Shown here: piece by piece, positions 3,147 to 38,357 of the stretch
Position numbering within the stretch: position 1 is the first letter of the stretch
How the letters are laid out: the number at the start of each line of letters is the position of its first letter
Virus record (IMG/VR): IMGVR_UViG_3300044511_000233
Coordinates: 1 to 64,000 of that record
Length of the DNA: 64,000 nt
Strand: one strand, 5' to 3'
DNA from: a virus
Position numbers and translations under genes: made by a program
Notes under the pieces: model-generated
Told to the model about the DNA's origin: nothing
The model's database searches: none
The model's input: only the letters and a program-made list of their open reading frames with translations

Positions 3147-3203
3147 TAACAACCTCGAGTTCAGTCAGGTGAGGTAAACCCCACCCGACTGAATATCGTA
3201 AAA

Positions 3204-5297: not shown

Positions 5298-5957
5298 GGA
5301 AGTTTTCTCCGACGTCAGATCAGCGGACGACAGCAAAAGAGTGAGCATGGAGGCCGCTGATCCATCCGCCGCGAGGCGGGCCTCCGAAGACTTCTGAATA
5401 CGAGCCCCTTTGATCCCGCCCTGACCAACCAGAGAAAGCTCAAACCATCGGTCGAGTTGACTGATCACCAGATGGTGACCGTTCTCACCCATGGTGTGGC
5501 CTTCCGGGTCAGTAGCGGACCAGATATTGTCGAAGGACGCGTTGGGGCCGAAGAAATCGAAACCACACGTGGAGCAGAGCGCTGCCTTGGGGAGTGTTGC
5601 GACAGAAACCTGATCGATGGTACCGTTCTCAATCAGGTTGATAATGTCTGCATGAGTCGAATCGACCCAGAACAACACACGAAGTTCGGAACCGACCACA
5701 TCGCCGAAAAAGGCTCGACCGAGCGGGAGCACTTGATCGTTGTGCATCGTCTGCAGAGGAAGACTCTCAGCATTGAGAGCATCCCGCATCTGCGTCATGA
5801 AATCGAGGGTATGAACCGCATCCTTATAGAGTGGGTGCCGTTTACGAACAGGCAGCGTGTTGAGCGCCGTGGCTTCGAAAACGACAACCTTCTCCGGGTC
5901 CGCACCTGCAGTTTGCAATCGCTGCCGGAGAAGATCAGTCAGGGGAACACGCTTCAT
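4884..5957 (-). CDS. Prohead protease fused to scaffolding domain
   Basis: About 357 residues from ATG 5957; a TTG at 5984 is an alternative start. The N-terminal ~200 residues look like a prohead serine protease: MHNDQVLPLGRAF supplies a candidate catalytic His, and IDQVSVATLPKAA and FELSLVGQGG lie where the nucleophile Ser would sit. A CSTC pair lies between them. Residues ~220-290 form a long charged, Ala-rich coiled coil (LTDEKAKNIALTSERDTLI), typical of scaffolds. The C-terminus SSGAFKSAR resembles a capsid-binding scaffold tail. An internal start at 5297 may make the scaffold alone. It acts in procapsid assembly and maturation with the downstream capsid protein. Confidence 0.78.
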   Translation of the reverse strand: MKRVPLTDLLRQRLQTAGADPEKVVVFEATALNTLPVRKRHPLYKDAVHTLDFMTQMRDALNAESLPLQTMHNDQVLPLGRAFFGDVVGSELRVLFWVDSTHADIINLIENGTIDQVSVATLPKAALCSTCGFDFFGPNASFDNIWSATDPEGHTMGENGHHLVISQLDRWFELSLVGQGGIKGARIQKSSEARLAADGSAASMLTLLLSSADLTSEKTSMDLKELVQQLTDEKAKNIALTSERDTLITERDAAVAARDEAVSALAAKDTELITSKAEVTRLSAFSGAVDALKDIAKHVLTISGRVTDSAPEKIEDIVTLVKGVKLSLPTSHTDPAHRSEGNEKVGQFSSGAFKSAR

Positions 5958-6099: not shown

Positions 6100-6954
6100 T
6101 CAACTGATAAGAGCCTTCAGTGCAATCAGTTCAGAGCGCGTGAATAGCACCCCTGCTATTATCACCTCTTGATGATGACTATCACCGATGACAATCTGAT
6201 TGTCTACTGTCGTATAACTATCAGCCCCAATAGCTATAGAATTTACAACATCAGACTTTTGATTAATATTATTACCGGAATTGGCCCCCAAAAATATATT
6301 GTCATAACCTAGACGCAATGATTGTCCCACGTCAAATCCGACGCCCACATTGCGATCACCTAGATCGCTGACTCCAGAACCTCCAAAAGCTCCTGAACCC
6401 AAACCAACATTGGAATTTCCGATGCTACGGGACAGCGCTGCAGCAAAGCCAAGCATAACGTTATAATCACCATTACCGCTCTCAAAAGAGCGATATCCCA
6501 TGGCGCAATTGCCTATGCCTGATACACTATAGCGCCCAACACTATCCCCGACTCCTGTATTATTGCCTCCTTCAGGAATCATTGACCAGCCCAGACGACC
6601 AATTACGGTCGTCCCGGTGCCAGTAATCATATTTTTAAGAGATTCGCTGCCAATTCCGATACAATCAGACGCCGCCGTAGCATACCTTAATGTCTGATAA
6701 CCAATGGCGATACTATGCGATAAATTAAGTTGCTGAGACAATGCAAAATCACCAAAAGCAATATTGCCTCCTCCTTGCTCAACCGCACCCAACGCACTGA
6801 AACCAGCTCCAATATTTCCCCCACCAACGACCATATCTCTTCCAGCTTCGCCGAAAAAATAATTACGGTAGGGGCTACCACCGATCCGTATAACTACCCG
6901 ACCATCCATTCGAGCGACGTAGCATCCGTCACCGCCGATTGTGGCTTCACTCAT
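6100..6954 (-). CDS. Tail fibre with YadA-like head repeats
   Basis: This 284-residue protein is built of repeats of the type (I/V)(A/G)(I/F)G, for example NIAFGDFALSQ, SIAIGYQTLRYA, CIGIGSESLKN and SIAIGADSY, spaced roughly every 14-28 residues. Such repeats form the left-handed trimeric beta-roll seen in heads of YadA-type adhesins and in some phage fibres. The C-terminus (QIVIGDSHHQEVIIAGVLFT then a short helix) may trimerise the fibre. It closes the fibre/esterase cassette and probably contributes to host binding. There is no signal peptide or autotransporter anchor. Confidence 0.72.
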   Translation of the reverse strand: MSEATIGGDGCYVARMDGRVVIRIGGSPYRNYFFGEAGRDMVVGGGNIGAGFSALGAVEQGGGNIAFGDFALSQQLNLSHSIAIGYQTLRYATAASDCIGIGSESLKNMITGTGTTVIGRLGWSMIPEGGNNTGVGDSVGRYSVSGIGNCAMGYRSFESGNGDYNVMLGFAAALSRSIGNSNVGLGSGAFGGSGVSDLGDRNVGVGFDVGQSLRLGYDNIFLGANSGNNINQKSDVVNSIAIGADSYTTVDNQIVIGDSHHQEVIIAGVLFTRSELIALKALIS

Positions 6955-6969
6955 TTTCTCGCTACTCCA

Positions 6970-7716
6970 TTATCTACCAAGCGCGGCCAACAGCTCAGCC
7001 ATCTTGGTAGAAAACCGCCGACCTAGAATGATTTGCGAGGCTGTCGTTCGATGGAACAGATCACCGGGTTTCATGGTAAGATCATTCGCGGTGACGCGAC
7101 CAACGTTAGAAGGCAGCGTCATGTTAGTTTGGGCTGTCACCATCTCCGCCCAATACGGATAACCTGGGTCGTTAGGGTTAGGATCAAGAATAGGAAACAC
7201 TACCGGGAGAGTAGGGTCGCTCAGATCCCCTCGAACATCGGCAACAAACTGCGTGAACGCCGCAGGCCACGCATTTACCAATGCCAGGGATGATGTTTCA
7301 GTCGCTCCCTGATCAAATACTAGCCCCTTGAGTGAACCAGAGGATGCAGCCTCCTGTAATCTCGCAATCATCGATCCATAGAGAGTTGATCGACTAAGAT
7401 TACGCCCCCAATCGGCCATGCTGCTGGCGCCCTTTGCGCCAGGGACAAGGCCGACAGGTCTCCCTGGGCGCAGATTGAACATCTCATCCCCAAACGCTAG
7501 CCCGAAACCAACACCGGGCGAAACATCTGATGAAACTGCGTCAACCTGACCTATCTCAGAATCAATAGGCTCACTCGCATAAACCCATTTTCCGGCGTTG
7601 TTGTAATTCAGAATTTTTATGTAATTCGTAAGAACCGGCATTTCACTGAGTAGACCACGGCCGGATGGATTAGATTGACCTGCAATCCCATAAATGTCAG
7701 GGTAATACTGCATCAT
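6970..7716 (-). CDS. SGNH-type carbohydrate esterase (sialate O-acetylesterase-like)
   Basis: This 248-residue protein carries the SGNH/SASA blocks. Block I is IAGQSNPSGRG with the nucleophile Ser in GQSN (residues 13-16). A block III-like QGATET lies near residue 137. A C-terminal GDLFHRT supplies the Asp-His pair. Family members remove acetyl groups from sugars, so this enzyme could deacetylate host surface polysaccharide during adsorption. ATG 7716/7713 has GAGAGG upstream. It lies between two fibre genes, suggesting it is a virion part or acts with the fibres. Block III normally reads QGExD, so QGATET is divergent. Confidence 0.75.
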   Translation of the reverse strand: MMQYYPDIYGIAGQSNPSGRGLLSEMPVLTNYIKILNYNNAGKWVYASEPIDSEIGQVDAVSSDVSPGVGFGLAFGDEMFNLRPGRPVGLVPGAKGASSMADWGRNLSRSTLYGSMIARLQEAASSGSLKGLVFDQGATETSSLALVNAWPAAFTQFVADVRGDLSDPTLPVVFPILDPNPNDPGYPYWAEMVTAQTNMTLPSNVGRVTANDLTMKPGDLFHRTTASQIILGRRFSTKMAELLAALGR

Positions 7717-7722
7717 TACCTC

Positions 7723-9960
7723 TCAAACAATCGACCGTAAGGTCACATGTCCCGTATCAATATTCACAGCGGGAAAAAACAACCTAAGATGGGTCAATCT
7801 ACTAATTGTCGGAATTTCAGCCTCGCCGTGCAGATATTGGATAATGCCATCCGAATTCTGCCGATATCTGATCGAGAAAAGAAAAGTTTTATTTGCATTC
7901 GTTTCAAGTGGATTAAGCACTTTGATAACACCACCTATCATCGAAGACGTCCCTGCTTTCTGCGTTCCCGAGAGAATGATCTTCGTATCGCCATAGTGGC
8001 TACCAGCATAGGATGGCGTTGGCGTGGAGGTCGCCGGAATGACCTGCCACGCATAATCATTGCTTGCGTTGAGATAGCCGACTCCGCCGTTATCCGACGC
8101 CTGCATATGCAATTGCGCCGCAGAGGCCGGCAGCATTTTGTGGATGGTGATTTCGTGCGATTTGTATCCGTTCGGCAGCGGTATGATGAGGTCCGCTTGC
8201 GACGCCGCACTAATGAAAGTCGATATCTCTGTCGGCGCGCCGATCACGTCGAACGCGGAGTAGCCATCGCAGACGATCGCGCCGCTTTGTCCTGGGAGCA
8301 AGTCGAACGTCGCGCGGCCGTCGATCAGCTCCGCCGAGCTCGGATCAATCGCGATGATCCCAGCCCCAATGTTCTTGACATAGATAACAAAATTTTCGCC
8401 CAATGTGGCCGCGGCGCCCAGCTCCATTGTCCATGAGCCGGAACAGCGGAACGTCGCGCCGATGTCGTCGGCGCCGACAGTGAATGCTGCGGTTTTGGTC
8501 GCGACGCTCGGGCGAATATTTCTGGCGACCTGCGCCTTTTCCGCCGTCGTGATCGTTTGCGCGGCATCGATCCGCACACGATTTCCGAGCGCAGCAAGCA
8601 TTGTGGTTGAAAAATTCGGATCATTGCCGAGGGCCGCCGCGATTTCGTTGAGAGTATCGAGCGCGGGGGGGGCAGCCGCGATCAGCGCGTCGACAGCCGC
8701 CTTGACGAAGGCCGTGCTGGCGAGCTGCGTCGTATTCGTGCCCGGTACCGCGGTCGGCGCCGTTGGAATACCGGCTAGAGCTAGATCACTCGCTAACTTG
8801 GAGCTCGTTACGTTAGCGTCAGTGATCTGCGTAGTAACCAATTGACCAGCTACATCACCAAACGCCGGCTGCGCAGCGACGGGGAGACCATCAATTCCAA
8901 TACTCGTCAGAAACTTTGTGGCAACCACCGCTAGGCTCTTAACACCCCCAAGTGTTGTAGAAGAGGGATTGGGCAGCCGCTCCGCAGGGAGCGTCCCACT
9001 GGAAATATTCCCTGCGTTCGTTGTATCAGTTGTCGCAGAAGCTACAAGACCTCCTATATCCGCCGCTACAAGAGTAACTGCTCCTGTCTTACCTGCAACC
9101 GACGTGACTTGATCGGTATTATCGATCTTGTCCCATGTCCCTCCATTGGAAACAATCCAATCTTGAAGCTTCCAATCAGACTCCCCATCAATGAGAGTAG
9201 TTCCAGCTACATTAACTTTATAGTAGTGACCCTTATTTGCTGCCGATGCCGCTGGTATCGCTGGAGTGTTGGTGTTGGCATTCCACGTTCCTTGATAGGC
9301 AAGAGAACCTAATACAGCAGCCGGTAATTGTGATGTTGGGATCTTACCCGCACTATCGAGAGTAGCCAGACCATTCGCCGCACCAGAGCCAAGATTGGTG
9401 CGCGCAGTAGGAATATCAGCTAGATCAGAAAGATTACTCGCTTTTTGCGCAGCTCCGGTGATACGGCTATCATCACCCGAGGCAACAGTTCCCGTCACTG
9501 TGCCTACGTTCTTGGTCGCCGCATCGCCTAGACCAAGATTCGTACGTGCGATCGGAATATTAACAAGATCAGAAAGGTTATTTGCAGCAACAACATCTCC
9601 TATGTTAGTGCCGTCAACCCCTTTCGCTGCTATCTTAATGAATTTTGTATTGTCGAAAGAGGCTGTAGACGTATGACCCGTAATACAGCTATAGGTTTCA
9701 CCTTGATAGGTAACAATGCTGATAGGGGGGATGCTACTATAAACAACTGACGAGGCCCATGCTGCAACAGACCCCCAAGCTACTGGACCTGTCGCGCCGG
9801 TAGGACCTGTCTCACCAGTCAACCCGGTATTGCCCTGAACACCTTGAATGCCCTGAACACCTTGAATGCCCTGAATGCCTTGAGGTCCCTGCGGACCTGT
9901 AGGGCCAGCAATAACCTCCACCTCAAGAACCGACCCAGAATCAAACAGTATATCAGTCAT
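7723..9960 (-). CDS. Tail fibre with collagen-like repeats
   Basis: This 745-residue protein starts at ATG 9960, overlapping the stop of the upstream gene (ATGA). After a short N-terminus comes a collagen-like Gly-X-Y stretch ([19 protein letters not shown], about residues 18-58). Next are repeats typical of long side fibres ([51 protein letters not shown]), then a beta-rich shaft and a globular C-terminus (after ~residue 590) that may bind the receptor. It lies between portal and protease genes rather than with the other tail genes at the right side of the window. Confidence 0.82.
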
Positions 9961-11772: not shown

Positions 11773-13512
11773 TTAGAGGCGAGAGTGTGGGAACGACCCG
11801 TAGGTGATCTTGTTCAAAGAACTTGGGGACAAGGAGGGTTGTTTAGAAGAGGAGGCAGGAAGCACGAAACATTGGGTACGTTTTTCAGCGTCATGATTAA
11901 GGAAGTCTGTTTCCACCGATTTTCTGGCAATGGAAAGATAAGTTAAAGCGTGGAAGAAGTGATCCTCACCCCGGAGCTTATTCCACGTAGCAGGCGTATC
12001 AGGATTCTCGACACGCACCATGTCGCGAAGATGGGTAATAATCAGTGGGGCCAAGTTGCCATAGCCGTTCAACACAAGTTTTGAACGACGTATAAGAGCA
12101 ACCGCATCGTCGATACCTTTTGTTCGGTGACAATTCCAATGTGAGGGTGACTCCTCGATATCGAATACCTCCTTGATAGTCGGTGAGTTCGGCGCCGTGG
12201 CATAATGCACAGGCATGATCACGTTGTTAGATACGTCACGAATTTGCTCGGAGAGGTTAGTGTCGGGATATCGATCGATGCACCCCGCCACGATGTTGTG
12301 CTTGGATAAAAGCTCGGTGATGAAGGACAGGAGTTTGTTAGAAGGGATCTGCCTGAAGAAGATTGTGGTCTCGAACGTGGCCAGGATGACATGGCATGTA
12401 ATGCCCACGTCGATGCCGAGGAGGCAAGGAACGTCGGAGGAGATCGTGGGCGGAGCCGGGCTCTGCATCGCCGCTCGAATCTCCGCCTCCGTCAAGCGCG
12501 CGCCGCCGGTGTCGTCGGACTGGCCGAGGACGGTGTTGCGAAAACCCTTTAGGTTGTCGAGCCGGGCGTAATTCGAGAGCTGCTTCAGGATATAAGGAAC
12601 AGTGATTGAGGAGACAGATGTGGGCCGCACGCGATAACCGCGGGTGGGGCGCCCCGGATGGCGTGCCACCCACTCACGGAGAGCGGGATCAGTGAGGTCG
12701 AGAGGCTTGGAACACTTCTCGCATCTCCAACGGGCATTGTCGTGGTCAATCGCAAAGATCTGATCCTGCGAGAGCGTCGAGAGATCCTCGACGTCGTTTT
12801 TGAGGCCGGGGAGTGCGACGAAACGTGGCTCGAAGGTTGGTATCTGGTGATGATTGCAGCTCGGACACTTGTAGAGATACTCGAACTGGTCAGAGTTCGT
12901 GTAGAGGGCATCGATCCCGTAGCCTGTGTATGTCGGTGTCGAGAACGCCTGAGTGATCTTGTAACTGGAACCCTGAAGTCGCGACTGAAACAGCGCGATC
13001 ATCTCCTGGTCGGAGAGATCCAACTCGTCGTGCATCAGAATATCTGCTGAGATAGATGTCGCATCGCCCTCAGTATTCCCGGTCATAAAACCAAATGACT
13101 GATCAATTTGATATATAGACTTTTGCCTGACAGGTTTATCTACTGTTGGGGGGTTAAAGATAAGTTCATTATCAACCAACGGGCGTACTCGCGTCTGAGA
13201 GAAGCGATCTCGCATAACATCCGTCGGCATTGTATAAATACCTGTCACGGCGGGTGTACGTCGCAGAAATGCGAGATATTTTCTGATTTGAATCTCAGAC
13301 AGACCAACCTGTGAAAGCTTCTCGCAGCACAAGTTCGGGTGATTGTCGTTGATAATTTGAATCTGAAACTCATAGCCTTTGAATGAGAAGGGTTTCTTTT
13401 TAAGATGAGTATTAACCATGAGCCACTCGCTCATAGGCATATTTAATTGATCTGACCCAAATCTCTGCTCAAGAGTTGCAATGAAACTGGAGAGATGAGT
13501 GTCACGCGACAT
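11773..13512 (-). CDS. Terminase large subunit (GpA-like)
   Basis: This protein has about 579 residues. The N-terminal ATPase has a deviant Walker A of the lambda GpA type (CCEKLSQVGLSEIQ, residues ~62-75) and a Walker B MHDELDLSD near 165. Two Cys pairs (CPSC near 215, CEKC near 265) give a zinc site found in GpA relatives. The C-terminal nuclease shows LLGIDVG with the first metal Asp (~370) and later GIDDAVALIRR and HFFHALTY. ATG 13512 is favoured over 13527 because GGTGAG, seven bases upstream and inside the preceding HNH gene, is a good ribosome-binding site. It packages phage DNA into the prohead through the portal. Confidence 0.85.
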   Translation of the reverse strand: MSRDTHLSSFIATLEQRFGSDQLNMPMSEWLMVNTHLKKKPFSFKGYEFQIQIINDNHPNLCCEKLSQVGLSEIQIRKYLAFLRRTPAVTGIYTMPTDVMRDRFSQTRVRPLVDNELIFNPPTVDKPVRQKSIYQIDQSFGFMTGNTEGDATSISADILMHDELDLSDQEMIALFQSRLQGSSYKITQAFSTPTYTGYGIDALYTNSDQFEYLYKCPSCNHHQIPTFEPRFVALPGLKNDVEDLSTLSQDQIFAIDHDNARWRCEKCSKPLDLTDPALREWVARHPGRPTRGYRVRPTSVSSITVPYILKQLSNYARLDNLKGFRNTVLGQSDDTGGARLTEAEIRAAMQSPAPPTISSDVPCLLGIDVGITCHVILATFETTIFFRQIPSNKLLSFITELLSKHNIVAGCIDRYPDTNLSEQIRDVSNNVIMPVHYATAPNSPTIKEVFDIEESPSHWNCHRTKGIDDAVALIRRSKLVLNGYGNLAPLIITHLRDMVRVENPDTPATWNKLRGEDHFFHALTYLSIARKSVETDFLNHDAEKRTQCFVLPASSSKQPSLSPSSLNKITYGSFPHSRL

Positions 13513-14053
13513 TGGCAAACTCACCATAGTGGGATTGAGCTGCCTGTTTTCGAGCGGCTGTCGCTTCCTCTAAAGTATCATAGTATCCAACTATAACCTC
13601 TTTCCTGTTCTGATGAACCCTTACTCTATATTTGCGCATCTTCTTATGCCATGATACCCCTGTAACTCCTGTCGTATTATCTGATCGAATCCCCTGATTA
13701 ATAATGTTTTGAGACCGGGTTGCTGGTCGAAGGTTATTCCATTCATTACTTGATGAGTGACGATTCTTATGATCAATATCTTCAGTAGGCCATGATTTAG
13801 TCATTAGGACATGAGCAATAACATGCACATAAAAACTCATAACTTTATCGCCGATCGTCACTCGCGCATGACGATAGCCTTTTCCGGTAATACTACGAAT
13901 TTCTTTGCCAGAGTATTTTGAGTTGAACGTCCTCCAACCTCGATCGCTATTAAAGTGCTCTCGAGGCCTAACTTTCCAGGTCAGGCCCCCTGTCTCAGGA
14001 TCATAATCAAAACACTCATGGAGATACTCAGGGGTCGGCTGCTCTTTTTGCAT
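13502..14053 (-). CDS. HNH homing endonuclease with AP2 domain
   Basis: About 183 residues from ATG 14053 (MQKEQPTPEYLHECFDYDPE). The frame is open to 14143, but the extra 30 residues are unlike the family. The HNH core is WPTEDIDHKNRHSSSNEW then NLRPAT, followed by an AP2 region (TTGVTGVSWHKKMRKYRV, VGYYDTLEEA). It ends GEFANVA. Its last codons overlap the terminase start by 11 bases, and the GGTGAG coding Gly-Glu is the probable ribosome-binding site of terminase. It would therefore be transcribed first in the minus-strand operon. Confidence 0.85.
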   Translation of the reverse strand: MQKEQPTPEYLHECFDYDPETGGLTWKVRPREHFNSDRGWRTFNSKYSGKEIRSITGKGYRHARVTIGDKVMSFYVHVIAHVLMTKSWPTEDIDHKNRHSSSNEWNNLRPATRSQNIINQGIRSDNTTGVTGVSWHKKMRKYRVRVHQNRKEVIVGYYDTLEEATAARKQAAQSHYGEFANVA

Positions 14054-14191
14054 CTGACCAAGATAATGACGTTCGTCACAAATTGAATCATCGAGAGCGA
14101 GTCTCTGGGAGAGAAAATTTTTCTGTGGTTGCGCGCGCAGCACCGCATCGCCATCCTTACTGACTCGCCAAAGTCAAGCCCAGGGGCACAC
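14054..14191. promoter_or_regulatory. Divergent intergenic region
   Basis: This gap separates the leftward structural operon from the rightward replication genes, so promoters for both must lie here or slightly inside the flanking genes. I see no convincing -35/-10 pair. TCTCT-GGG-AGAGA (14102-14114) is a weak relative of the repeated GTCTCT-N3-AGAGAC palindrome. Confidence 0.4.
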
Positions 14192-14715: not shown

Positions 14716-17190
14716 ATGGTTTTCGCAGTTGAGGCTCCCCGCTATTGGGAACGCGGGTTGAGCGTGATTCCGGTGCTGGGTAAGCGGCCAGTTCAGAAAG
14801 AGTGGGCAAAGTGGGCTCTTGAGCTGCCTTCGGTTGAAGAGCGAGAACAGTGGCTGCAGACGTTTAGTGAGAAGAAGTATGGAATAGGGCTCGTCTGTGG
14901 TCCTCAAAGCGGCATATGCGCGGTCGATATCGACAGCGATGAAGATCGTGTGATCGGCGCCGTCGAGCGTGTTCTGCCACGGTCGGGATGGGAGCGCGTC
15001 GGCAAGAAGGGCAAAGTGTTGATCTATAAGTTCCGTGATCCACGGAACTTTACTGTGAAGGGAGTCGATGGGAAGGGCATCATCGACGTTTTGTCGTTGA
15101 AGCGACAGTTCATCTTGCCCCCATCGATCCATCCCGACACTGGTAAGCCGTATTGGGCTAATCGAGACCTACTCGAGATGCTTGATGGGGCTGAGGGGGA
15201 GTTGGCGGACCTTCCGAATGGGCTTGATCTGGTTCTGAAAGCTGCTCTGAAGGATGTTGGTATTGAGACATCGTCAACGTCGGGCAGGGTGGTTGTCACC
15301 AATTACGTTAGTTCTGGGAATCGCGACAACACGTTGTTGCGGATATGTGGTCTCTATTCGAAGGAGATTGTCGACGGAAACTGGACGTTTTTACAGCAAG
15401 TGGAGCGGCTGGAAGGTTGGGTCGAGGGTTTTGTTGAGAAGATTTGGGGTGATGAGCTGACAATTGGTCATGCTGTTGAGCGACTTGTCTATTGTCTTCG
15501 GCGGGACGTCTTTGAGCACGGAAAAACGCTGCCGGTGGGGTGGGACGAAGGATTGAGTGATGAGGCCAGAGAGGCGTTTGGGCTCGGAGAGTTCGATGAC
15601 AGTCGGCGCCGGTGGTCTTTCAAAGAGATTCTGGATTGGTTCAACGGCGAAGTGGCGGCCGGGGGGGGCGTCGATGTAAATGATGAGAGTCAGATGATGA
15701 CTCTCGTCGATAAGGCCCTGGTTAAAATCGCCGGTAATACGGATCTGGTGTCGACCGAAGAAGACAGGTTGCTGAAGGTCATATCGGATACCGCACGAGG
15801 CGCATTTCGGCTTGTTTCTCTTCGAAAGCGTGTGAAAGAGCTGCGACGGGGGATTGTTGTTGGTGAAACCCATGCCGAGGTTGCCGAAGCTATCCTGAAA
15901 CTGATTGAGGAGAACGGTGAAGTCCGGTTTTGTAACGGAAAATTCTGGCAGTGGGTGGGGTCGCACTGGCTTAGTCTAAACGATAGCGATCTCTTGAATC
16001 TGATAATAATGAACTCGAAGGGAATGCAGTCAGCAAAAAAGAACAGTGACTATAATGGCGTGTTGCGCACGATGCAGGCGACTCGAACAACAGAGCTCAT
16101 TCGAGTTACGATCAAGGGCGTCAATTTCGTCAATGGGTTTCTTGATGAAGATCTAGTGCTTCGGGCTCATGATCGGGACTACGGATGCACCTATTGCTTG
16201 AATTATGCCTATGAACCAGGGTTAGCGAGTGAGTGTTTGCTATGGCAGAACATGCTTCGCGACTTTTGGGGAGAGGATGAGGACTATCAAGACAAAATTC
16301 AGGCGCTTCGAGAGGCAATGGCTGCGACGATTTTCGGGGTCGCGACACGCTACCAACGTGCATTCATCTTCAAAGGCGTTGCTGGGGCTGGTAAAACCAG
16401 AATATTGCATCTGATGCGAGCGTTGATGCCCCCTGGAACCAGTAGTGCAGTTCCACCGGAGAAGTTTGCTGAGAAATTTGAGAGCACCGAGCTCGCTGGT
16501 AAGCTTTTGAACATGGCGGGAGAGCTCTCGAAGCAGAAAATCCCCGGCAAACACTTCAAAACTATTATTGAGGGTGGTGAGCTGCAGGGTCAATTCAAAA
16601 ATAAACCTGTTTTCAGCTATACACCCCTCTGTGCTCACTGGTTTGGATCAAATCACTGGCCGAAGGTGGACGATCCGGACGGAGGATGGCTCCGTAGGTG
16701 GCTCTTTTTCAGGTTTGATCGACCATTGCCGCCGGAGAAAAGGATTGAAAATGTTGAAGAGATGATCCTTGGGCAAGAGCGTGAAGCCATTATGGCTTGG
16801 GCGGTTCAAGGAATTGTGAGTTTGAAGCTTAATCGAGAATATCGTTTATCGAAATCTCATTACGAATGCATCGAGGAGATGAATAGGAACGGTGACTCTG
16901 TGGGTTTTTGGTGGGGCCATTTTGTGGAGTCCGGGCGACTCAGGTACGGAATGGCCCAACATACGCAGGTTACCCCGAAATTCACTTCAGTAGATCATCT
17001 CTTCCGCGCATATCGGCTCTTTTGCTCCAGCACGGCAGGTGCCTCGCATGTGGGGCTTCAGACCTTCATCGAGCGCATGGTGGAAGTAGGGGTGAAGAAG
17101 GGATTCTCACCGATACGTCAGGAAGGTGGGGGGATTACCGCGTTCTTGTTTCTCACACTGTGTGCGGAAACCCCGGTGGCGTCTCCATAA
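14716..17190 (+). CDS. Primase-polymerase / SF3 helicase fusion
   Basis: This 824-residue protein joins two replication activities. Residues 1-200 are an AEP-type primase-polymerase: GLVCGPQSGICAVDIDSDED carries the metal-binding DID, and RQFILPPSIHPDTGKPYW is the family signature. The C-terminal half is a D5/P4-type SF3 helicase, with Walker A GVAGAGKT near 554, a Walker B-like LLNMAGELSK near 595, and sensor/motif C and arginine-finger region HWFGSNHWPKVDDPDGGWLR near 645-665. ATG 14716 has AAGGTGG upstream. It probably primes and unwinds at the phage origin. The unusual palindromes and hairpins at 18-20 kb lie downstream and are candidate origin sequence. Confidence 0.9.
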   Translation: MVFAVEAPRYWERGLSVIPVLGKRPVQKEWAKWALELPSVEEREQWLQTFSEKKYGIGLVCGPQSGICAVDIDSDEDRVIGAVERVLPRSGWERVGKKGKVLIYKFRDPRNFTVKGVDGKGIIDVLSLKRQFILPPSIHPDTGKPYWANRDLLEMLDGAEGELADLPNGLDLVLKAALKDVGIETSSTSGRVVVTNYVSSGNRDNTLLRICGLYSKEIVDGNWTFLQQVERLEGWVEGFVEKIWGDELTIGHAVERLVYCLRRDVFEHGKTLPVGWDEGLSDEAREAFGLGEFDDSRRRWSFKEILDWFNGEVAAGGGVDVNDESQMMTLVDKALVKIAGNTDLVSTEEDRLLKVISDTARGAFRLVSLRKRVKELRRGIVVGETHAEVAEAILKLIEENGEVRFCNGKFWQWVGSHWLSLNDSDLLNLIIMNSKGMQSAKKNSDYNGVLRTMQATRTTELIRVTIKGVNFVNGFLDEDLVLRAHDRDYGCTYCLNYAYEPGLASECLLWQNMLRDFWGEDEDYQDKIQALREAMAATIFGVATRYQRAFIFKGVAGAGKTRILHLMRALMPPGTSSAVPPEKFAEKFESTELAGKLLNMAGELSKQKIPGKHFKTIIEGGELQGQFKNKPVFSYTPLCAHWFGSNHWPKVDDPDGGWLRRWLFFRFDRPLPPEKRIENVEEMILGQEREAIMAWAVQGIVSLKLNREYRLSKSHYECIEEMNRNGDSVGFWWGHFVESGRLRYGMAQHTQVTPKFTSVDHLFRAYRLFCSSTAGASHVGLQTFIERMVEVGVKKGFSPIRQEGGGITAFLFLTLCAETPVASP

Positions 17191-17242
17191 GTCAGTGGGA
17201 CTGGCTTGAAGTGCTCGCAGGATTGAAGGCCTGGGAGAATGA
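17191..17242. repeat. 52-bp direct repeat, copy 1
   Basis: This copy begins directly after the primase-helicase stop and matches 17604-17655 at 46 of 52 positions. In one frame both copies encode a Trp-rich peptide of the type QWDWLEVLAGLKAWEND, with substitutions mostly at third positions or conservative, which suggests they descend from a coding sequence. Confidence 0.85.
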
Positions 17243-17273
17243 CTAAATCTGCTTAGTTAAGATGGAGGGTTAA

Positions 17274-17486
17274 ATGGAGAGTAACAGCTCAGCACGTAAT
17301 CCAGATCAACAGTTCCAGATCGGAGATTCCGTGCTTTATGTTCCTGAGGGTGTTTATGCGACGATTGATGGATATATTTGGATGCAGACTATAGGACAAG
17401 TTCCTAAAATTGCTGCTTATAAGTTATCTATTGGTATTTCGGTTCCAGAAAATAGCATTATTCACAAAGAGTCACGTAGTATTTAA
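17274..17486 (+). CDS. Small unknown protein
   Basis: This 70-residue protein begins MESNSSARNPDQQFQIGDSV. The body (QIGDSVLYVPEGVYATIDGY) resembles a small beta-barrel of the type in DUF1653/KOW-like proteins, but this is only an impression. GGAGG lies eight bases upstream of ATG 17274, a strong start. It is flanked by two copies of a 52-bp repeat, so the gene may have been inserted or duplicated with it. Confidence 0.6.
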   Translation: MESNSSARNPDQQFQIGDSVLYVPEGVYATIDGYIWMQTIGQVPKIAAYKLSIGISVPENSIIHKESRSI

Positions 17487-17603
17487 TTTCCATCTTCTAA
17501 ACTGCGACTGTTTATTATCGATGGCCCTGGGGTCTGAAAAATAGGCTTATTAAAGGGTCGTGCCCTAAGCGTGAACTTTAATGAATTGATGTAGAGTATT
17601 TGT

Positions 17604-17655
17604 GTCAGTGGGACTGGTTCGAAGTGCTTGCAGAGTTGAAGACCTGGGAGAATGA
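17604..17655. repeat. 52-bp direct repeat, copy 2
   Basis: This is the partner of 17191-17242. It lies in a short frame that could start with TTG near 17598-17601 and ends PPEGWE, stop at about 17713. It may be a remnant or a tiny gene of about 37 codons. Confidence 0.8.
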
Positions 17656-17836
17656 TCAGATGAATGATTCCACTTTCGGCCCTGAAATCAAGCCTCCGGA
17701 AGGATGGGAATAAACAATTCGGGCCGAGACCCTGATTAGGTGAGGGTGAGTGTTTCTGCTTCCTATCAGGAACGAGGCCGAGAGCCCTGATTAGTTGAGA
17801 ATGTACGTTTGTGTTGGGGGCTGTGGGCGTGGTTGA

Positions 17837-17863
17837 GGCCGTCTCTGGTAGAGACGGCCTTTT
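17837..17863 (+). terminator. Rho-independent terminator after primase region
   Basis: GGCCGTCTC and GAGACGGCC form a perfect 9-bp stem with loop TGGTA, followed by TTTT. It ends the primase transcript. The stem contains the recurrent GTCTCT-N3-AGAGAC palindrome. Confidence 0.9.
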
Positions 17864-18157
17864 GCTATCTAGGCGCCCTGTGCTGGCGCCGTATGTTGAT
17901 CGTGTTGGTTCACTCAACATGGAGCATAAAGAAATGAGAGGGATTACCTCAACAATACAAGTACTAGCATCTGAAAACTCAAAATTTTAGCTAGTATAGA
18001 TGTGGCAGGGCGGTTCCTCCCAGCCCTCTTTTCCCCTATATTTTCATATACTTATCCCCTCTCAACATCATTCTGACTTCTACCTTATCCCTCATTACTT
18101 TTAGTCCCATCGGTCACAAGCCGACACCAGCCCTCACTAGGCCGGAACGTCACTCCC

Positions 18158-18188
18158 TTGCCCACTGGCGAACATTGCCAGTTGGCAA
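18158..18188. promoter_or_regulatory. Palindrome TTGCCA-N2-TGGCAA with degenerate upstream copy
   Basis: TTGCCAGTTGGCAA at 18175-18188 is a perfect 6-bp inverted repeat around GT, about 20 bases before the start at 18209. Immediately upstream TTGCCCACTGGCGAA (18158-18172) is a degraded copy. Further copies occur at 19044 and 19674, each at a gene start. Likely roles are an operator or an RNA hairpin controlling ribosome access. Confidence 0.7.
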
Positions 18189-18208
18189 ACAACACGAAAG
18201 AGAAACCA

Positions 18209-18931
18209 ATGTCCGCTACTTACTCCAAAGGGCTTAAAGCCAACTCCCTACAAGCTGCTAAAACGTGGCAGTCGGCGAAGACGCAGGCTTACGTTGCGTT
18301 CACCTTGCAGGCTCTTGACGGCCTGAATTGGGGCGAAGGAAAGGGCCAGCAACAGGCCGCAATTCAGAACGCCATTCGCATGGTGATGTTTGATGCCGGC
18401 GTCAATCCGACCGATCGGAGCCGGGTCAGTTCAACCGCCGTGCGTCTCGCCGCTAAGGTGAGCAAGCATTACCAGCAGCACAAACTAATCACTGCGGCAA
18501 AGGATGCATCCTCAATCGAGGAAGCGACCGAAGCCCTTACGTCTTTCTTGTCCGGGCTCGGCGTCAAAGCCGCCTATCAATTCGAGGCTTGGGCGAAGTC
18601 CGCCGACGCAATGGCGCTGTCCAAGGCCGCATCCAAGGCGGCGCTGGCCGACAAGGTTGGCGGAGTGGCAAAGGCCGCCACTCCCGCCCAGGATGACGCC
18701 AAGAGCGAGGAACCCGCCACCAGCGAGGAACCCAACACGATTGCCGTCATCGATACGTCGGAGAAGGCGCTTGCCGCCATCCTGCCGGCCGTCGCTCGGC
18801 TCAACAATCGCGATCTGAAGCGGCTTGAGGCGGCTATTGCCGCCCGCCGCGAGAGCCTTACGGCTGCGGCGCAGACGAAGCGTGCGGCCAAGGCTGTGGA
18901 CGTGGACGCTGAAATTAAGAAAGCGGCCTAA
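18209..18931 (+). CDS. Unknown Ala/Lys-rich protein
   Basis: About 240 residues from ATG 18209 (MSATYSKGLKANSLQ), preceded by GAAAGAGA; the frame is open to 18158. The first ~110 residues are a compact helical domain (WQSAKTQAYVAFTLQALDGL, NPTDRSRVSSTAVRLAAKVS). An Ala-rich middle and an acidic linker (DDAKSEEPATSEEPN) lead to a helical C-terminus (LNNRDLKRLEAAIAARRES). This composition fits a nucleic-acid-associated or structural helper protein. I recognise no family. A GC-rich 9-bp hairpin follows the stop. Confidence 0.7.
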   Translation: MSATYSKGLKANSLQAAKTWQSAKTQAYVAFTLQALDGLNWGEGKGQQQAAIQNAIRMVMFDAGVNPTDRSRVSSTAVRLAAKVSKHYQQHKLITAAKDASSIEEATEALTSFLSGLGVKAAYQFEAWAKSADAMALSKAASKAALADKVGGVAKAATPAQDDAKSEEPATSEEPNTIAVIDTSEKALAAILPAVARLNNRDLKRLEAAIAARRESLTAAAQTKRAAKAVDVDAEIKKAA

Positions 18932-18943
18932 CACAATCAGGCG

Positions 18944-18966
18944 GGCGGGCGCCGAGAGCGCCCGCC
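18944..18966 (+). terminator. GC-rich hairpin without T-run
   Basis: GGCGGGCGC and GCGCCCGCC form a perfect 9-bp stem around CGAGA, 13 bases after the stop at 18931. It is followed by a hexamer repeat (cagcct) instead of Ts. It may be a terminator-like or mRNA 3'-end stabilising hairpin. Confidence 0.5.
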
Positions 18967-19043
18967 TCAGCCTCAGCCTCAGCCTCACGCCCGCACACGT
19001 TCCGCTCCGCGATGCACGGGGGAAGTGTGTCCTTTGAAGGAGA

Positions 19044-19057
19044 TTGCCAGATGGCAA
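19044..19057. promoter_or_regulatory. Palindrome TTGCCA-N2-TGGCAA overlapping a start codon
   Basis: TTGCCAGATGGCAA is perfect in its arms, and its right arm contains the ATG (19051) of the next gene, while GAAGGAG lies just upstream. A hairpin here would bury the start codon, so translational control is possible. Confidence 0.65.
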
Positions 19058-19200
19058 ACCAGAACCGGCGCTCCCATCGCGCTCTGGCGGTGGCCCACAG
19101 CCCGCGCGAAAACGCCACATTCGCCTTGTCCGCGCTGCTCGTCGCGCTGCTCGCCCTGTGGCCCGTCGCCATCCTGCTCAGGCTGGCGGTGCGGCTGTGA
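19051..19200 (+). CDS. Small single-pass membrane protein
   Basis: This 49-residue protein begins MANQNRRSHRALAVAHSPRE. A hydrophobic segment (FALSALLVALLALWPVAILL, residues 24-43) should span the membrane. AGGAG lies eight bases upstream. The start codon sits inside a TTGCCA-TGGCAA palindrome. The stop overlaps the next start (GTGA). Confidence 0.65.
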   Translation: MANQNRRSHRALAVAHSPRENATFALSALLVALLALWPVAILLRLAVRL

Positions 19201-19493
19201 GCGGGCGCGTGTTGCGCGATCTGCGCGACCCTGGGGTCGAAGACGGGGATTTCGTTCCTTTCACCAACTTCGGCTTCAGCGTGATGGTGAGCGCCGCCGT
19301 GCGCCATCAGGAACATATGGCGGCGCTGCGCAAGCAGGCGCATGCGCCGGCCGGTTATGGCTTTGAACGCGCCGACGCGGGGGCGATCGAGCATATCCCG
19401 CTCCCTCACTCTCCCACAAGCGTCAAGCCACGGTCAAAATGGAAAAAGCAGCCCTGGCGGCGTCGCCGCTGGGCGCAGGACGGTTATAAATAG
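19197..19493 (+). CDS. Small unknown protein
   Basis: This 98-residue protein starts with GTG 19197, overlapping the preceding stop. It begins VSGRVLRDLRDPGVEDGDFV (first residue read as Met). The C-terminus is strongly basic (KPRSKWKKQPWRRRRWAQDG), which suggests nucleic-acid or membrane contact. No known family was recognised. Confidence 0.6.
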   Translation: MSGRVLRDLRDPGVEDGDFVPFTNFGFSVMVSAAVRHQEHMAALRKQAHAPAGYGFERADAGAIEHIPLPHSPTSVKPRSKWKKQPWRRRRWAQDGYK

Positions 19494-19552
19494 GCGTGAG
19501 CCGCTCGGCGTCGTCGGGCGGCTTATGCGCATAGAGCCCGCTGGCTCTTTCA

Positions 19553-19637
19553 CGCCCACACCCCCGCCCATACGCTCAACCCCCATTCCAGAGCCTGCTC
19601 TGGCTCAAGCACGTGCGTCCCGGCGGGGGTGTGGGCG
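19553..19637. other. Large inverted repeat with inner hairpin; candidate structured RNA or origin element
   Basis: CGCCCACACCCCCGCC (19553-19568) is the perfect reverse complement of GGCGGGGGTGTGGGCG (19622-19637). Inside the 53-base loop CCAGAG-CCTG-CTCTGG makes a second perfect hairpin. The element lies in the gap 19494-19705, between two genes and just before a third TTGCCA-TGGCAA palindrome. Possible roles are a replication-origin cruciform, a structured leader RNA or an attenuator. No T-run follows. Confidence 0.65.
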
Positions 19638-19673
19638 CGATTTCGACAGGCGCAGTGTCTCGATCGCGGGACA

Positions 19674-19687
19674 TTGCCAGTTGGCAA
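19674..19687. promoter_or_regulatory. Palindrome TTGCCA-N2-TGGCAA, third copy
   Basis: TTGCCAGTTGGCAA, identical to the copy at 18175, lies 18 bases before ATG 19706. The sequence after it (CAAACAGAAAGGGCTCC) resembles that after the copy at 19044, so the motif is part of a longer duplicated leader. Confidence 0.7.
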
Positions 19688-19705
19688 ACAGAAAGGGCTC
19701 CTCCC

Positions 19706-19909
19706 ATGCGCTACGGCGCTCACCCTCACTTCACCCGCCCAGAGGACGACCAACACGCCCTAGGGGCGCTCCTGGCCCGTCTGGAGGCCGAACGGGAACA
19801 GGAGCGGCTGCGTCGGCAGCGCCGGTTAGAGCTCGTCCGCGTCGACGAGAGCCTGTGGCGGTGTGCTGGACTTGGTTCTGGAATTCAGAGCCGAGGAGGG
19901 ACCCGATGA
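19706..19909 (+). CDS. Small charged protein
   Basis: This 67-residue protein begins MRYGAHPHFTRPEDDQHALG and contains a very basic/acidic helix (LARLEAEREQERLRRQRRLE). Its TGA overlaps the next ATG (ATGA). There is no strong Shine-Dalgarno sequence (GGGCTCCTCCC precedes). The coupled downstream gene and the leader palindrome support it as a gene. Confidence 0.5.
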   Translation: MRYGAHPHFTRPEDDQHALGALLARLEAEREQERLRRQRRLELVRVDESLWRCAGLGSGIQSRGGTR

Positions 19910-20124
19910 AGATCGGCGACACGGTTCGCATTCACCCCGCGTGCGACGCCTTCATGCAGGGCATGACGCATGGCGTGATCAAGCACATCGGCAAGAAATG
20001 GATCACGGTGACGTGGACGCTAAATTGCGGCGTCAAACGACAGTTTCGCCGTTGGCATCTCATGGACATGGACGGCAACCCGTTCGAGGAGTGGCCAGAA
20101 GAACGGCCAGGGCGGGGAAAATAA
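19906..20124 (+). CDS. Small SH3-like protein
   Basis: This 72-residue protein begins MKIGDTVRIHPACDAFMQGM. The pattern GDTVRIHP, HGVIKHIGKKWITVTW and VKRQFRRWHLM resembles small KOW/SH3-like barrels. GGAGGG lies seven bases upstream of ATG 19906, a strong start. It ends the GC-rich gene block before the AT-rich control region. Confidence 0.65.
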   Translation: MKIGDTVRIHPACDAFMQGMTHGVIKHIGKKWITVTWTLNCGVKRQFRRWHLMDMDGNPFEEWPEERPGRGK

Positions 20125-20368
20125 GTGTAGCGCTTACCGAGCGCTTTGTTCGCGTTTTGTGCCAGTTGTGGTGGGTAGAAAGTGGCGCCCGGTGCGCGCG
20201 AGGGTAGGTCAGGAATATAGTGAAATCACTATATTGTTACCATTTGGGGTATTTAGTAGTCCTCTTTTTTCTTGACATTGGCCTCTAAAGAAAAAAATAA
20301 ACTCTAATAGAGATGTAATAAAAATAAGAAATAGGGTGTCGAGTTGGGGTTTGGGTTTGGCCTACCGT
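20125..20368 (+). promoter_or_regulatory. AT-rich control region with operator-like palindrome and promoter candidate
   Basis: Within this 244-base gap AATATAGTGA (20214-20223) and its perfect reverse complement TCACTATATT (20226-20235) flank AA, forming a 22-bp operator-like site. TTGACA at 20272-20277 is a perfect -35; the -10 is less clear (AAATAA at 17 bases, TAAACT at 20). GTTACCAT at 20235-20242 is inverted as ATGGTAAC at 20369 and again about nine bases later. The base composition drops sharply in GC from the preceding genes. Confidence 0.55.
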
Positions 20369-20809
20369 ATGGTAACAATGGTAACCAACAAGGTCCAAGA
20401 AGAGGAAAATATTTTGACCAAACTCTCCCATTCACCTAATGTAATTCATCTTATTGAGCAGAAGCACGGGGTGGATTACCTTTCATTGCCTCATCTATTT
20501 CTCTACTTAGAAGTTCTGCCTATTACTTTATATGATGAACTGATTAAGGTTGCCCAACGGTTTCAGGTGTTATCAAGTGTCCAACAGGGGGATGTAGCCC
20601 CACAACTACCGTTATTCTGTCTACATCCCGAAAGGCTCCCTCTATCATGGCGTGCCATTGATTGGGGGGTCACTCAGTTTGGTTGTGAGCAGCTTCCTAA
20701 GAAGTTCGGAAGTAAGGAAGTGGCCTACCATCTCCACGCGGTCATTCTCTCGTTCCAGACGTTGATAAAAGAGCGTCAAAGCAAGTTTGAAGCTGATTGG
20801 CGCTCATAA
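20369..20809 (+). CDS. Unknown protein, AT-rich gene
   Basis: About 146 residues from ATG 20369 (MVTMVTNKVQEEENILTKLS); a GTG at 20336 is an alternative. It appears helical with a hydrophobic middle (YLSLPHLFLYLEVLPITLYD). It follows the operator-like region and its first codons contain two ATGGTAAC half-sites, so it may be controlled by, or act with, a regulator binding there. No family recognised. Base composition differs from neighbours, suggesting recent acquisition. Confidence 0.6.
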   Translation: MVTMVTNKVQEEENILTKLSHSPNVIHLIEQKHGVDYLSLPHLFLYLEVLPITLYDELIKVAQRFQVLSSVQQGDVAPQLPLFCLHPERLPLSWRAIDWGVTQFGCEQLPKKFGSKEVAYHLHAVILSFQTLIKERQSKFEADWRS

Positions 20810-20811
20810 CT

Positions 20812-20877
20812 CGCCCACAGCCTGAACCACCAACACAACCACACATCGCCATCCGATCAAGGTTCTCGCTTAGGGCC
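20812..20877. repeat. 66-bp perfect direct repeat, copy 1
   Basis: Identical over 66 bases to 22343-22408. It begins CGCCCACAGCCTGAACC and ends GCTTAGGGCC. It lies between genes, with its 3' end just upstream of the next leader. Confidence 0.95.
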
Positions 20878-20939
20878 TCATCTTTAACAGAACCCGTCGT
20901 CTTTAACAGGGTCACGTCCCATTTGGCCTAGGTTTCAAA

Positions 20940-21380
20940 ATGTCGATCCGGTCGATTTTCTACGTCGTCGTCGCAAGCCGGTGGGCCAACCTGATCGAGA
21001 ACCCTGTAGGTTTCCCATATCAACCGCCCAAGGACAACTGCTGGTTGTGGAAGGGTTATATGGCTCCTGGGGGCCGCCCGCGCGCCAAGTTATTGGGGCA
21101 GCAAGTTAACCCCCGTCGCATCCTCTACGAGCTTCATACGGGTAAAAATCCTCATCTTCGAATGACGTGTGGGTGTTCAAACTGTATCAACCCGTTACAC
21201 GCGAAGGATCACAGTGAAGTAGAGGAAAGGGTCCCTATTTTTACAGTTTCAAACATCAATTGGGACCTTACTTTCAAAGGTATGCCGGACATCGACTTCG
21301 ACAACATCACGGCTGAGGAACTCGCCGAGCAAACCGGCGCGCCCCTCGAAGCGGCTCAGAAATACCTCGACGAGAGGTAA
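20940..21380 (+). CDS. HNH-like protein with altered catalytic motif
   Basis: This 146-residue protein shows the layout of phage HNH endonucleases: NCWLWKGYMAPGGRPRAK, then a structural Arg/Tyr helix (RRILYELHTGKNP) and the zinc-site segment TCGCSNCINPLHAKDHSE. In active relatives the segment before the Cys pair reads HxC; here it reads MTCGC, so the first His seems lost. The C-terminal ~50 residues (TAEELAEQTGAPLEAAQKYL) add a helix-turn-helix-like tail. It may be inactive or a DNA-binding derivative. It lies after the first 66-bp repeat. Confidence 0.6.
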   Translation: MSIRSIFYVVVASRWANLIENPVGFPYQPPKDNCWLWKGYMAPGGRPRAKLLGQQVNPRRILYELHTGKNPHLRMTCGCSNCINPLHAKDHSEVEERVPIFTVSNINWDLTFKGMPDIDFDNITAEELAEQTGAPLEAAQKYLDER

Positions 21381-21673
21381 CACACTCTTACCCGCTTAAT
21401 CCTCTGTGCCCCACTAGAGCAGGTCACATGATTATCTGGGCAACGTAGGAGGCAATCATGCGCTCGACCAATTAGCTAATAGATATCGGCATCAATGACA
21501 GTATTTTGAATGAGGGCTTCGTCACAATCGTGGCGAAGCCTTTTCACATCCCGCCCCCAGCCACACGCATTTCCTCGCACCAGAAAAAGCACTGGAGCGA
21601 GGAAGTGCGTCCCGCTCACGGCAACGAGCAACGAGCAAAGATTGCTCACGATCACAAACTAGGAGAAACTAAC
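21381..21673 (+). other. Intergenic region with terminator
   Basis: About 290 bases without a convincing gene. It holds a strong terminator at 21515-21544, then a leader containing a CCCAGCCACACGCA element also seen near 23570, before the gene at 21674. Confidence 0.6.
21515..21544 (+). terminator. Rho-independent terminator
   Basis: GGCTTCGTCAC pairs with GTGGCGAAGCC (one G-T pair) around AATC, followed by TTTT. Confidence 0.85.
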
Positions 21674-22143: not shown

Positions 22144-22356
22144 ATGGTGAACTTTATGATGAAGAGTTTTTATCGTGTCGAAATCATCTTCGAGAGCGAA
22201 CAGGCGACCTCACCGCAGGAAGCGTTCCGACAGGTTCTCGCTTGGATTAACAACAATCCCAGCGACGTCAGCGCCTTCGTCTATAAGCTTGATGATTTCG
22301 GAAACTCTACAGACGAGCCACAATCTGTGATGTTGGGCGACCCGCCCACAGCCTGA
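22144..22356 (+). CDS. Small unknown protein
   Basis: About 70 residues; ATG 22144, 22156 and 22159 are possible starts, none with a strong Shine-Dalgarno sequence. The pattern FYRVEIIFESEQATSPQEAF and VLAWINNNPSDVSAFVYKLD fits a small alpha/beta fold. Its stop lies inside the second 66-bp repeat (ACAGCCTGA), so the repeat overlaps the gene's 3' end. Confidence 0.55.
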   Translation: MVNFMMKSFYRVEIIFESEQATSPQEAFRQVLAWINNNPSDVSAFVYKLDDFGNSTDEPQSVMLGDPPTA

Positions 22357-22408
22357 ACCACCAACACAACCACACATCGCCATCCGATCAAGGTTCTCGC
22401 TTAGGGCC
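22343..22408. repeat. 66-bp perfect direct repeat, copy 2
   Basis: Identical to 20812-20877. Its left end carries the stop of the gene at 22144 and its right end (TTAGGG) supplies the ribosome-binding site of the gene at 22415. Confidence 0.95.
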
Positions 22409-23560: not shown

Positions 23561-23596
23561 GCCTCGCCCTCAGCCACACGCACTATCGCTTCCACA

Positions 23597-23632
23597 ACTC
23601 ACCGCGTCACTCCACGCGGTGAGTTTCTTTTT
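23597..23632 (+). terminator. Rho-independent terminator
   Basis: ACTCACCGCGT and ACGCGGTGAGT form an 11-bp stem around CACTCC, followed by TTCTTTTT. The region 23619-23657 is repeated at 24939-24977. Confidence 0.92.
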
Positions 23633-23657
23633 GTGCTCAAGCGTCACGCTCACAGCC
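23619..23657. repeat. 39-bp direct repeat (terminator/leader), copy 1
   Basis: It begins at GGTGAGTTTC and ends GCTCACAGCC. It matches 24939-24977 with one mismatch and covers the right half of the terminator plus the following leader. Confidence 0.9.
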
Positions 23658-24878: not shown

Positions 24879-24916
24879 TCTACTCAATCACGCCCACAGC
24901 CTCACGCTCCCCCACA

Positions 24917-24952
24917 ACTCGCCTCGATCCACATCAAGGTGAGTTTCTTTTT
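24917..24952 (+). terminator. Rho-independent terminator
   Basis: ACTCGCCT pairs with AGGTGAGT (one G-T pair) around a 12-base loop, followed by TTCTTTTT. Confidence 0.8.
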
Positions 24953-24977
24953 GTGCCCAAGCGTCACGCTCACAGCC
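24939..24977. repeat. 39-bp direct repeat (terminator/leader), copy 2
   Basis: Partner of 23619-23657 with one mismatch. It ends GCTCACAGCC and leads into the next small gene. Confidence 0.9.
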
Positions 24978-37842: not shown

Positions 37843-38357
37843 ACCGTATATCAATCGAACATCTTCGGGAACGCCTAGATTATGATCCTGAAACAGGGGT
37901 ATTGAGGTGGAAGATTTACCGCAGTCCTAAATACCCAGCAGGATCTGTCGCTAATGGGTATTTAAGAAAACGAGATAATCAGTATGTTTTTAATATAAAT
38001 GATACTACGATTCTGGGTAAGGAGTTATGTTTTGCTGTATTTTACGGTAAATGGCCGTGTAGACGTGTAATTCAAAAGGATGGCGATCCTTGTAATTTTA
38101 AGATTATAAATCTTATGGAGGAGACAGTTCGGGATTGGGAGGCGCGGCAGAGACGTCCTGTAGGTAAAAGTGGATACAGGGGGGTCACTAAACAACCTAA
38201 CGGAAAGTATCGTGTATATGTTTGCAAAGGGTCAAAACTTATTTATGGGGGTTGTTATTCGATAGCAGAGAAAGCCGCACAGGTTTATGACGAGCTTGCG
38301 ATTAAATATTTGGGGTCATCTGCTATAACTAATCGTAGTCTTGGATTGCTGAAATGA
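37839..38357 (+). CDS. AP2-domain protein from a decayed HNH endonuclease
   Basis: This 172-residue protein (GTG 37839) begins MNRISIEHLRERLDYDPETG, like the active HNH-AP2 genes in this window. At the HNH core it reads WPCRRVIQKDGDPCNFKIIN, so the catalytic His of IDH is replaced, and NLRxAT has become NLMEET. The AP2 part is intact (GKSGYRGVTKQPNGKYRVYV, IYGGCYSIAEKAAQ). The gene is notably AT-rich. It is probably cleavage-dead but may still bind DNA. It overlaps both neighbours by four bases. Confidence 0.72.
   Translation: MNRISIEHLRERLDYDPETGVLRWKIYRSPKYPAGSVANGYLRKRDNQYVFNINDTTILGKELCFAVFYGKWPCRRVIQKDGDPCNFKIINLMEETVRDWEARQRRPVGKSGYRGVTKQPNGKYRVYVCKGSKLIYGGCYSIAEKAAQVYDELAIKYLGSSAITNRSLGLLK

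Follow-up and report, generated by a model that had tools for sequence, protein, structure and literature searches.

Genes and features around the hairpin

A large hairpin is located at positions 19553-19637 of the window, by which we mean the whole 64,000-nucleotide stretch of viral DNA that was analysed, in a gap between small genes downstream of a DNA primase gene. The source virus record consists of 78,750 bases and its two ends overlap by 151 nt, where the first 126 are exact and the remainder contains 5 mismatches. The record was therefore read as a circularly closed assembly of ~78.6 kb, in which the contig ends are not physical ends. The portal and primase sequences group the phage with Caulobacter phage Seuss, Achromobacter phages JWF and 2-1, Xylophilus phage Lumi and the Acinetobacter siphophages EAb13, fJoAci01 and fJoAci04. 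The portal protein matches that of Seuss at 49% and the primase matches those of 2-1, JWF and Seuss at 37-38.5%. The gene for the terminase large subunit is found on the minus strand at 11773-13527 and its product matches phrog_675 and GpA_ATPase, while the portal matches phrog_3753; both PHROG families are named in the annotation of EAb13. The DNA primase is encoded on the plus strand at 14716-17190 (Prim-Pol, DUF5906 and D5_N matches; phrog_1156) and is the gene which precedes the direct terminal repeat (DTR) in the relatives.

Between the primase and the hairpin, the plus strand encodes a 240-aa alanine-rich protein (18209-18931), which would be the first gene of the predicted DTR, and a 49-aa protein (19051-19200) with a hydrophobic stretch, which looks membrane-like by eye and has no Pfam or PHROG match. 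These are followed by a third small ORF (19197-19493, plus strand) whose stop codon is separated from the start of the hairpin by 60 nt. A plasmid or ICE island was considered for the TTGCCAGTTGGCAA leaders and was rejected, as no DNA matches were found to phages with positions 19400-19760 or to plasmids with positions 18000-20400. Among the proteins of the block, P0001 had no plasmid match and its 8 viral and 53 genome-contig pattern candidates included no relative. P0003 had no match in plasmids or phages and only a weak PHROG match (phrog_5546, function unknown, 4.9e-6). An exact 19-mer was absent from the genome contigs, and a 17-base pattern was found at 20 viral loci which share no common context by eye.

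The initial annotation had placed the hairpin in the same zone as a set of repeated palindromes, and these were located at 18175, 19044 and 19674. All three have the sequence TTGCCAGWTGGCAA and occur at or shortly upstream of small-gene starts. A metagenomic relative described below (L049) has a different palindrome, GTTGAAA-N(2 or 3)-TTTCAAC, which was found by eye at comparable positions (3441, 4895 and three within 5425-5500), and the palindromes of both look like phage-specific operators. In addition, five HNH-type endonuclease genes are found in the window (285-935, 2586-3152, 13502-14143, 20940-21380 and 37800-38357). AP2 matches are present in four of the five, and the five genes are probably homing endonucleases, although some of the domain matches are under the Pfam cut-offs. 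Long repeats were also observed in the early region, where 20809-20877 resembles 22340-22408 (99% identical) and 23592-23657 resembles 24912-24977 (83% identical).

Structure of the hairpin

The inverted repeat claimed in the initial annotation, with its perfect 16-bp arms, 53-nt loop and inner 6-bp stem, was confirmed by a scan for inverted arms. The outer arm CGCCCACACCCCCGCC (19553-19568, plus strand) pairs along its full length with GGCGGGGGTGTGGGCG (19622-19637). Folding of the loop between them gives an inner hairpin at 19588-19603, where the stem CCAGAG/CTCTGG (19588-19593/19598-19603) closes a 4-nt loop of sequence CCTG. This is the sole 16-bp perfect inverted repeat in the window, the runners-up having 13 bp (perfect arms of at least 12 bp, loop of at most 90). 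A length of 16 bp was reached neither in 200 shuffles of positions 18011-20124 (longest 15 bp) nor in 20 whole-window shuffles (longest 14 bp). The gapped score also ranks the hairpin top among the inverted repeats of the 64-kb window, at 47 with the next at 37. The RNA fold of 19540-19650 was found to have an energy of -59.3 kcal/mol, compared with -37.8 ± 3.3 kcal/mol in 200 shuffles (z -6.45), none of which was as low. When 14 bases of each arm were searched in the viral contigs, no match was found.

Terminal repeats of related phages

Seven records of Seuss/JWF/Lumi/EAb13-like siphophages have usable ends (NC_047757, NC_029075, OQ974181, OQ067477, OQ717042, PV839591 and PV839592). All seven contain a long DTR after the primase gene, starting 355-1720 nt past it, and the primase is located 2.4-3.3 kb from one record end. 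The order shared by these relatives is terminase, primase, DTR and early genes. The DTR lengths are 1748 bp in Seuss, 1466 bp in JWF, 1542 bp in 2-1, 2298 bp in Lumi, 2177 bp in EAb13, 2238 bp in fJoAci01 and 2182 bp in fJoAci04. The Seuss DTR is annotated in its record as identical terminal repeats, the ends of fJoAci01 and fJoAci04 were mapped with PhageTerm according to their records, and the DTRs of JWF and 2-1 were read from the duplicated record ends. For EAb13 and Lumi, passages of PMC10508131 and PMC9959647, respectively, state that the ends were mapped with PhageTerm. The concatemer junction was modelled by joining the ends of each record, and all junctions were oriented as primase, left end (L), repeat, right end (R) and early genes.

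We left out of the counts Vibrio phage 51E28.4, which has merely a 55-nt end overlap that is probably an assembly overlap, and Lana, whose record is opened at the terminase. The TCUP2199 and Mystique records are collapsed and were used for stem alignment only. Pseudoalteromonas phage KB12-38 was tried as a further case and rejected, its best primase match (E 0.5) being unconvincing. In this phage (L052), several AATAACCTGTCC-like repeats in both orientations were observed at 6399-7724, a stretch without annotated genes which is possibly its genome-end region.

Each of the seven DTRs was found to encode a protein of 195-265 aa, a range which becomes 195-318 aa when the matching block of L049 is counted. 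These proteins are alanine-rich in most of the seven relatives and in L049. BLAST comparison of eight proteins gave no homology between clades; they are possibly one very fast-evolving early protein.

At the left end, the motif CAAAA(A)TTT, searched as [CG]AAAA+TTT[TC], was observed to start 30-31 nt upstream of L in six of the seven records. The start is at -31 in Seuss, Lumi, EAb13, fJoAci01 and fJoAci04, at -30 in 2-1 and, in the deposited JWF record, at -17. Four of the seven junctions, those of Seuss, JWF, 2-1 and Lumi, contain this single plus-strand copy in 15-18 kb. The spacing was noticed post hoc and not blind; its density-based chance was computed for four genomes and is below 0.001 in each.

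At the early-gene side of the DTR, an outer stem straddles R in six of the seven records. The stem comprises 13 bp in Seuss, 12 bp in JWF, 12 pairs with one mismatch in 2-1 and 19 pairs around one mismatch in the three Acinetobacter phages, where one pair of fJoAci04 is a G-T wobble. Lumi is the exception, since its stem stops 11 nt short of R, inside the DTR, and none spans R. When the loops were folded alone, an inner stem of Seuss and of the three Acinetobacter records had its 3' foot 1 nt before R, and in 2-1 and JWF (as deposited) R fell within the 3' strand of an inner stem. The outer 3' arm follows R by 9 nt in Seuss, 18 nt in 2-1, 20 nt in the three Acinetobacter phages and 55 nt in JWF as deposited. 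An alignment with 2-1 suggests that the deposited ends of JWF may be shifted from their true place by tens of bases.

R was scored against every 15th position of the same junction. Positions that equalled or exceeded the score of R numbered 0 of 1146 in JWF, 5 of 1037 in 2-1, 0 of 511 in fJoAci01, 2 of 909 in EAb13, 3 of 525 in fJoAci04, 39 of 1052 in Seuss and 837 of 993 in Lumi. Combined over the four clades this gives a p value of 8e-5, or 7e-4 when the weakest member of each clade is taken, both of which are post hoc, approximate and derived from overlapping positions. A repeat scoring higher than R is present elsewhere in the junction region of 2-1, EAb13, fJoAci04 and Seuss. Furthermore, the Seuss R score of 30 is equalled by a repeat (30) which straddles the Seuss L, and both Lumi and Seuss are weak cases for a hairpin at R. 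The stem sequences were seen by eye to be unrelated between clades, with GC content and loop sizes differing too. The clades therefore share a structure in a particular location. Covariation, which the initial annotation had named as a check, was tested on five Acinetobacter phages, a group with little variation; one two-sided change was found and 346 of 500 shuffles scored as high, which is uninformative.

Predicted terminal repeat in the window

Five plus-strand copies of the left-end motif are found in the 64-kb window, at 8388, 14113, 17980, 57796 and 61850. The copy at 17980-17989 (CAAAATTTTA) is the lone one between the primase and the hairpin, and L is therefore predicted 31 nt from its start, at ~18011, which is 820 nt past the primase. 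From the hairpin, by analogy with the relatives, R is predicted at ~19603, at or beside the 3' foot of the inner stem (~19603-19604), with the 3' outer arm ~18-19 nt beyond it. The predicted DTR, which would be present here as a collapsed copy, would thus occupy 18011-19603 on the evidence of its position relative to the primase, the motif at L and the hairpin at R. Its length is 1,593 bp with a GC content of 0.619, and the predicted mature genome of ~80.2 kb compares with 81.5-85.1 kb for the records of the seven relatives. The initial annotation had put the hairpin about 2.4 kb after the primase; the distance from the last primase base (17190) to 19553 was measured as 2,363 nt, which is where the DTR of the relatives lies (1466-2298 bp from the starts given above).

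The GC content rises from ~18.25 kb and remains high past the predicted R (0.630 for 19604-20124), falling only near 20.1-20.25 kb. Because it is high on both sides of 19603, GC content does not mark R. The third palindrome copy, at 19674, is also outside the predicted repeat. Neither this copy nor the extent of the GC-rich block fits an R at 19603, and a later R is possible.

Metagenomic relatives

The layout of the window was found again at L049, a locus on a contig of 72,977 bases with terminase and primase matches of 58% and 41.5%, respectively. The primase is followed by motif copies at 3209 and 3249, a GC-rich block and a hairpin. The block contains an alanine-rich ORF, a small ORF which looks membrane-like by eye and is at the place corresponding to the 49-aa protein, and a third ORF. 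The hairpin is a perfect 19-bp one and is located ~2.5 kb past the primase, at the matching place, in a sequence unlike that of the window and in a genome with unmapped ends. Its score of 51 is exceeded at one (57) of 627 other positions.

In L050 (terminase 41%), the motif was observed ~0.5 kb past the primase match, and a large hairpin is absent from the next 1.5 kb of the locus after the motif. L024 (primase 36%) has no plus-strand copy of the motif in 16 kb and no junction was placed. The repeat scan left out L051, which has a weak primase match, and L048. A close relative, with a primase match of 88%, is IMGVR_UViG_3300036987_000490 (L023/L047), a 6.6-kb contig which stops at about window position 17959, some 50 nt before the predicted L.

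Possible role of the hairpin

The structure of the hairpin, the recurrence of such structures at or beside the ends of the relatives, the spacing of the motif from L and the gene order are the observations on which the interpretation is based. We consider it likely that this phage has a genome-end system in which the hairpin serves as the right-end element, marking R or helping to make it during concatemer processing. The hairpin probably contributes to the signal by which the terminal repeat is cut from replicating DNA. The position of a predicted genome end at the hairpin is fairly well supported, and the mechanism is one that we infer. The phage would package a linear genome of ~80.2 kb whose direct terminal repeat measures ~1.6 kb, and the junction of its head-to-tail concatemers would hold one repeat in the order primase, L, repeat, R and early genes. 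L would be set by the CAAAA(A)TTT motif, starting 31 nt outside the repeat, and R would be set within the loop of the large hairpin, at or beside the inner stem, with the outer 3' arm usually following 9-20 nt later. The hairpin would form in DNA, the terminase or a partner nuclease would cut in or beside its loop, and the fold-back could aid the copying of the repeat, which would provide one repeat for each neighbouring genome. This reading is weakened by the GC-rich block which passes R, by L024, which has no motif, and by the less exact position of the inner stem in 2-1 and JWF.

The initial annotation had proposed a replication-origin cruciform, a packaging element or a structured RNA, and it is the packaging element that is supported, by the location of the hairpin where the terminal repeat of the relatives would end. 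Three other readings, namely a transcript end, a replication origin and a piece of foreign cargo, could each apply and explain less than a genome end does. The first of these takes the hairpin as a transcription or RNA-stability element which follows the small DTR genes, its nearness to the genome ends being a by-product. Its location 60 nt past a stop codon and its very stable RNA fold are consistent with this, but we consider it unlikely. The initial annotation was correct that no T-run follows the hairpin: none is present after either arm. A terminator scan of 17000-21500 made no call at this site, which is not the short-loop GC stem with a T-run that defines an intrinsic terminator. The loops are also long for terminators (53 nt here and 45-123 nt in the relatives), and in six of the seven records the stem encloses R. 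The suggestion of a structured RNA found no support in Rfam, where no match was obtained at the gathering score in the whole 64-kb window.

An origin for replication or for primase loading, close to the left genome end, would agree with the gene for a Prim-Pol/D5-type primase 2.4 kb upstream and with a sharp change in GC skew. However, this change, from +0.20 to -0.39 in steps of 250 bases, occurs at 18.0 kb, at a distance of 1.5 kb from the hairpin, with nothing comparable observed at the hairpin itself. Such a change is expected at a genome end too and fits one at least as well as it fits an origin, and the ends of the relatives explain the position of the hairpin better. We therefore regard the origin put forward in the initial annotation as quite improbable. 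It seems very improbable that the block at 18-20 kb represents foreign cargo with a hairpin of its own and no tie to the genome ends: its elevated GC content (~18.25-20.1 kb) extends past the predicted R and two of its proteins (P0001 and P0003) have no relatives in the collections searched, but L049 has a block of the same gene layout and the relatives have their DTRs at that place.

With the hairpin taken as the right-end element, a broader proposal can be made tentatively, although it may well not hold. A family of siphophages may use two unlike signals, namely a motif at a fixed 31 nt on the left and, on the right, a fast-changing hairpin which is conserved in shape rather than in sequence, with the fold-back duplicating the repeat. 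A recurring right-end hairpin of unrelated sequence and a near-fixed left motif form a two-signal model that is testable in the cultured relatives. In addition, the two signals could allow genome ends to be predicted in metagenomic assemblies, in which the physical ends are no longer visible because the repeat is present in collapsed form.

Comparison with known systems

To our knowledge, the cutting and duplication of long DTRs from concatemers are poorly understood outside T7. A hairpin at the genome end appears to be new for this phage group, a conclusion that is tentative. Among the titles and abstract openings listed, a coverage that excludes most subscription journals, none describes such a hairpin for the group. 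The word 'hairpin' does not occur in the main text of the Lumi (PMC9959647) and TCUP2199 papers, and in the EAb13 announcement (PMC10508131) 'palindrom' occurs solely in a reference.

During T7 infection, a hairpin has been reported in DNA containing the terminal repeat, according to a passage of PMC4281155 that cites Chung and Hinkle 1990. T7 is therefore alike in having a DTR that needs duplication at the concatemer junction and a hairpin that is said to occur. It differs in that its DTR is 160 bp and no perfect arms of at least 9 bp (loop of at most 120) were found in the 2.1 kb of the junction examined, whereas the predicted R of the window is spanned by a large stem. Since T7 is without such arms, DTRs do not require such a hairpin and that of the window is at most an analogous device. 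For N4, a passage of PMC3896407 describes a DTR, hairpin priming and inverted repeats at the 3' ends. The likeness to the window, which consists of a DTR and a hairpin at the genome end, is by description only, and N4 differs in being described there with single-strand extensions.

The closest comparison is with the junctions of the Seuss/JWF/Lumi/EAb13-like phages. The stem sequence, GC content and loop size differ and the ends of the window are predicted rather than mapped, whereas the gene order, a large stem at or beside the early-side end and a motif 30-31 nt from L (in six of the seven records) are alike. In SPO1 (L056), a 15-bp inverted repeat was found at 13251-13320, between gene 60 and gene 0.11, which its record gives as the first gene of unique sequence. 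The SPO1 DTR, which is ~13 kb long, would be present in this record as one copy because the record end shows other genes. The repeat at 13251-13320 may be an end signal of this type, in a phage to whose terminase that of JWF is likened in a passage of PMC9228384.
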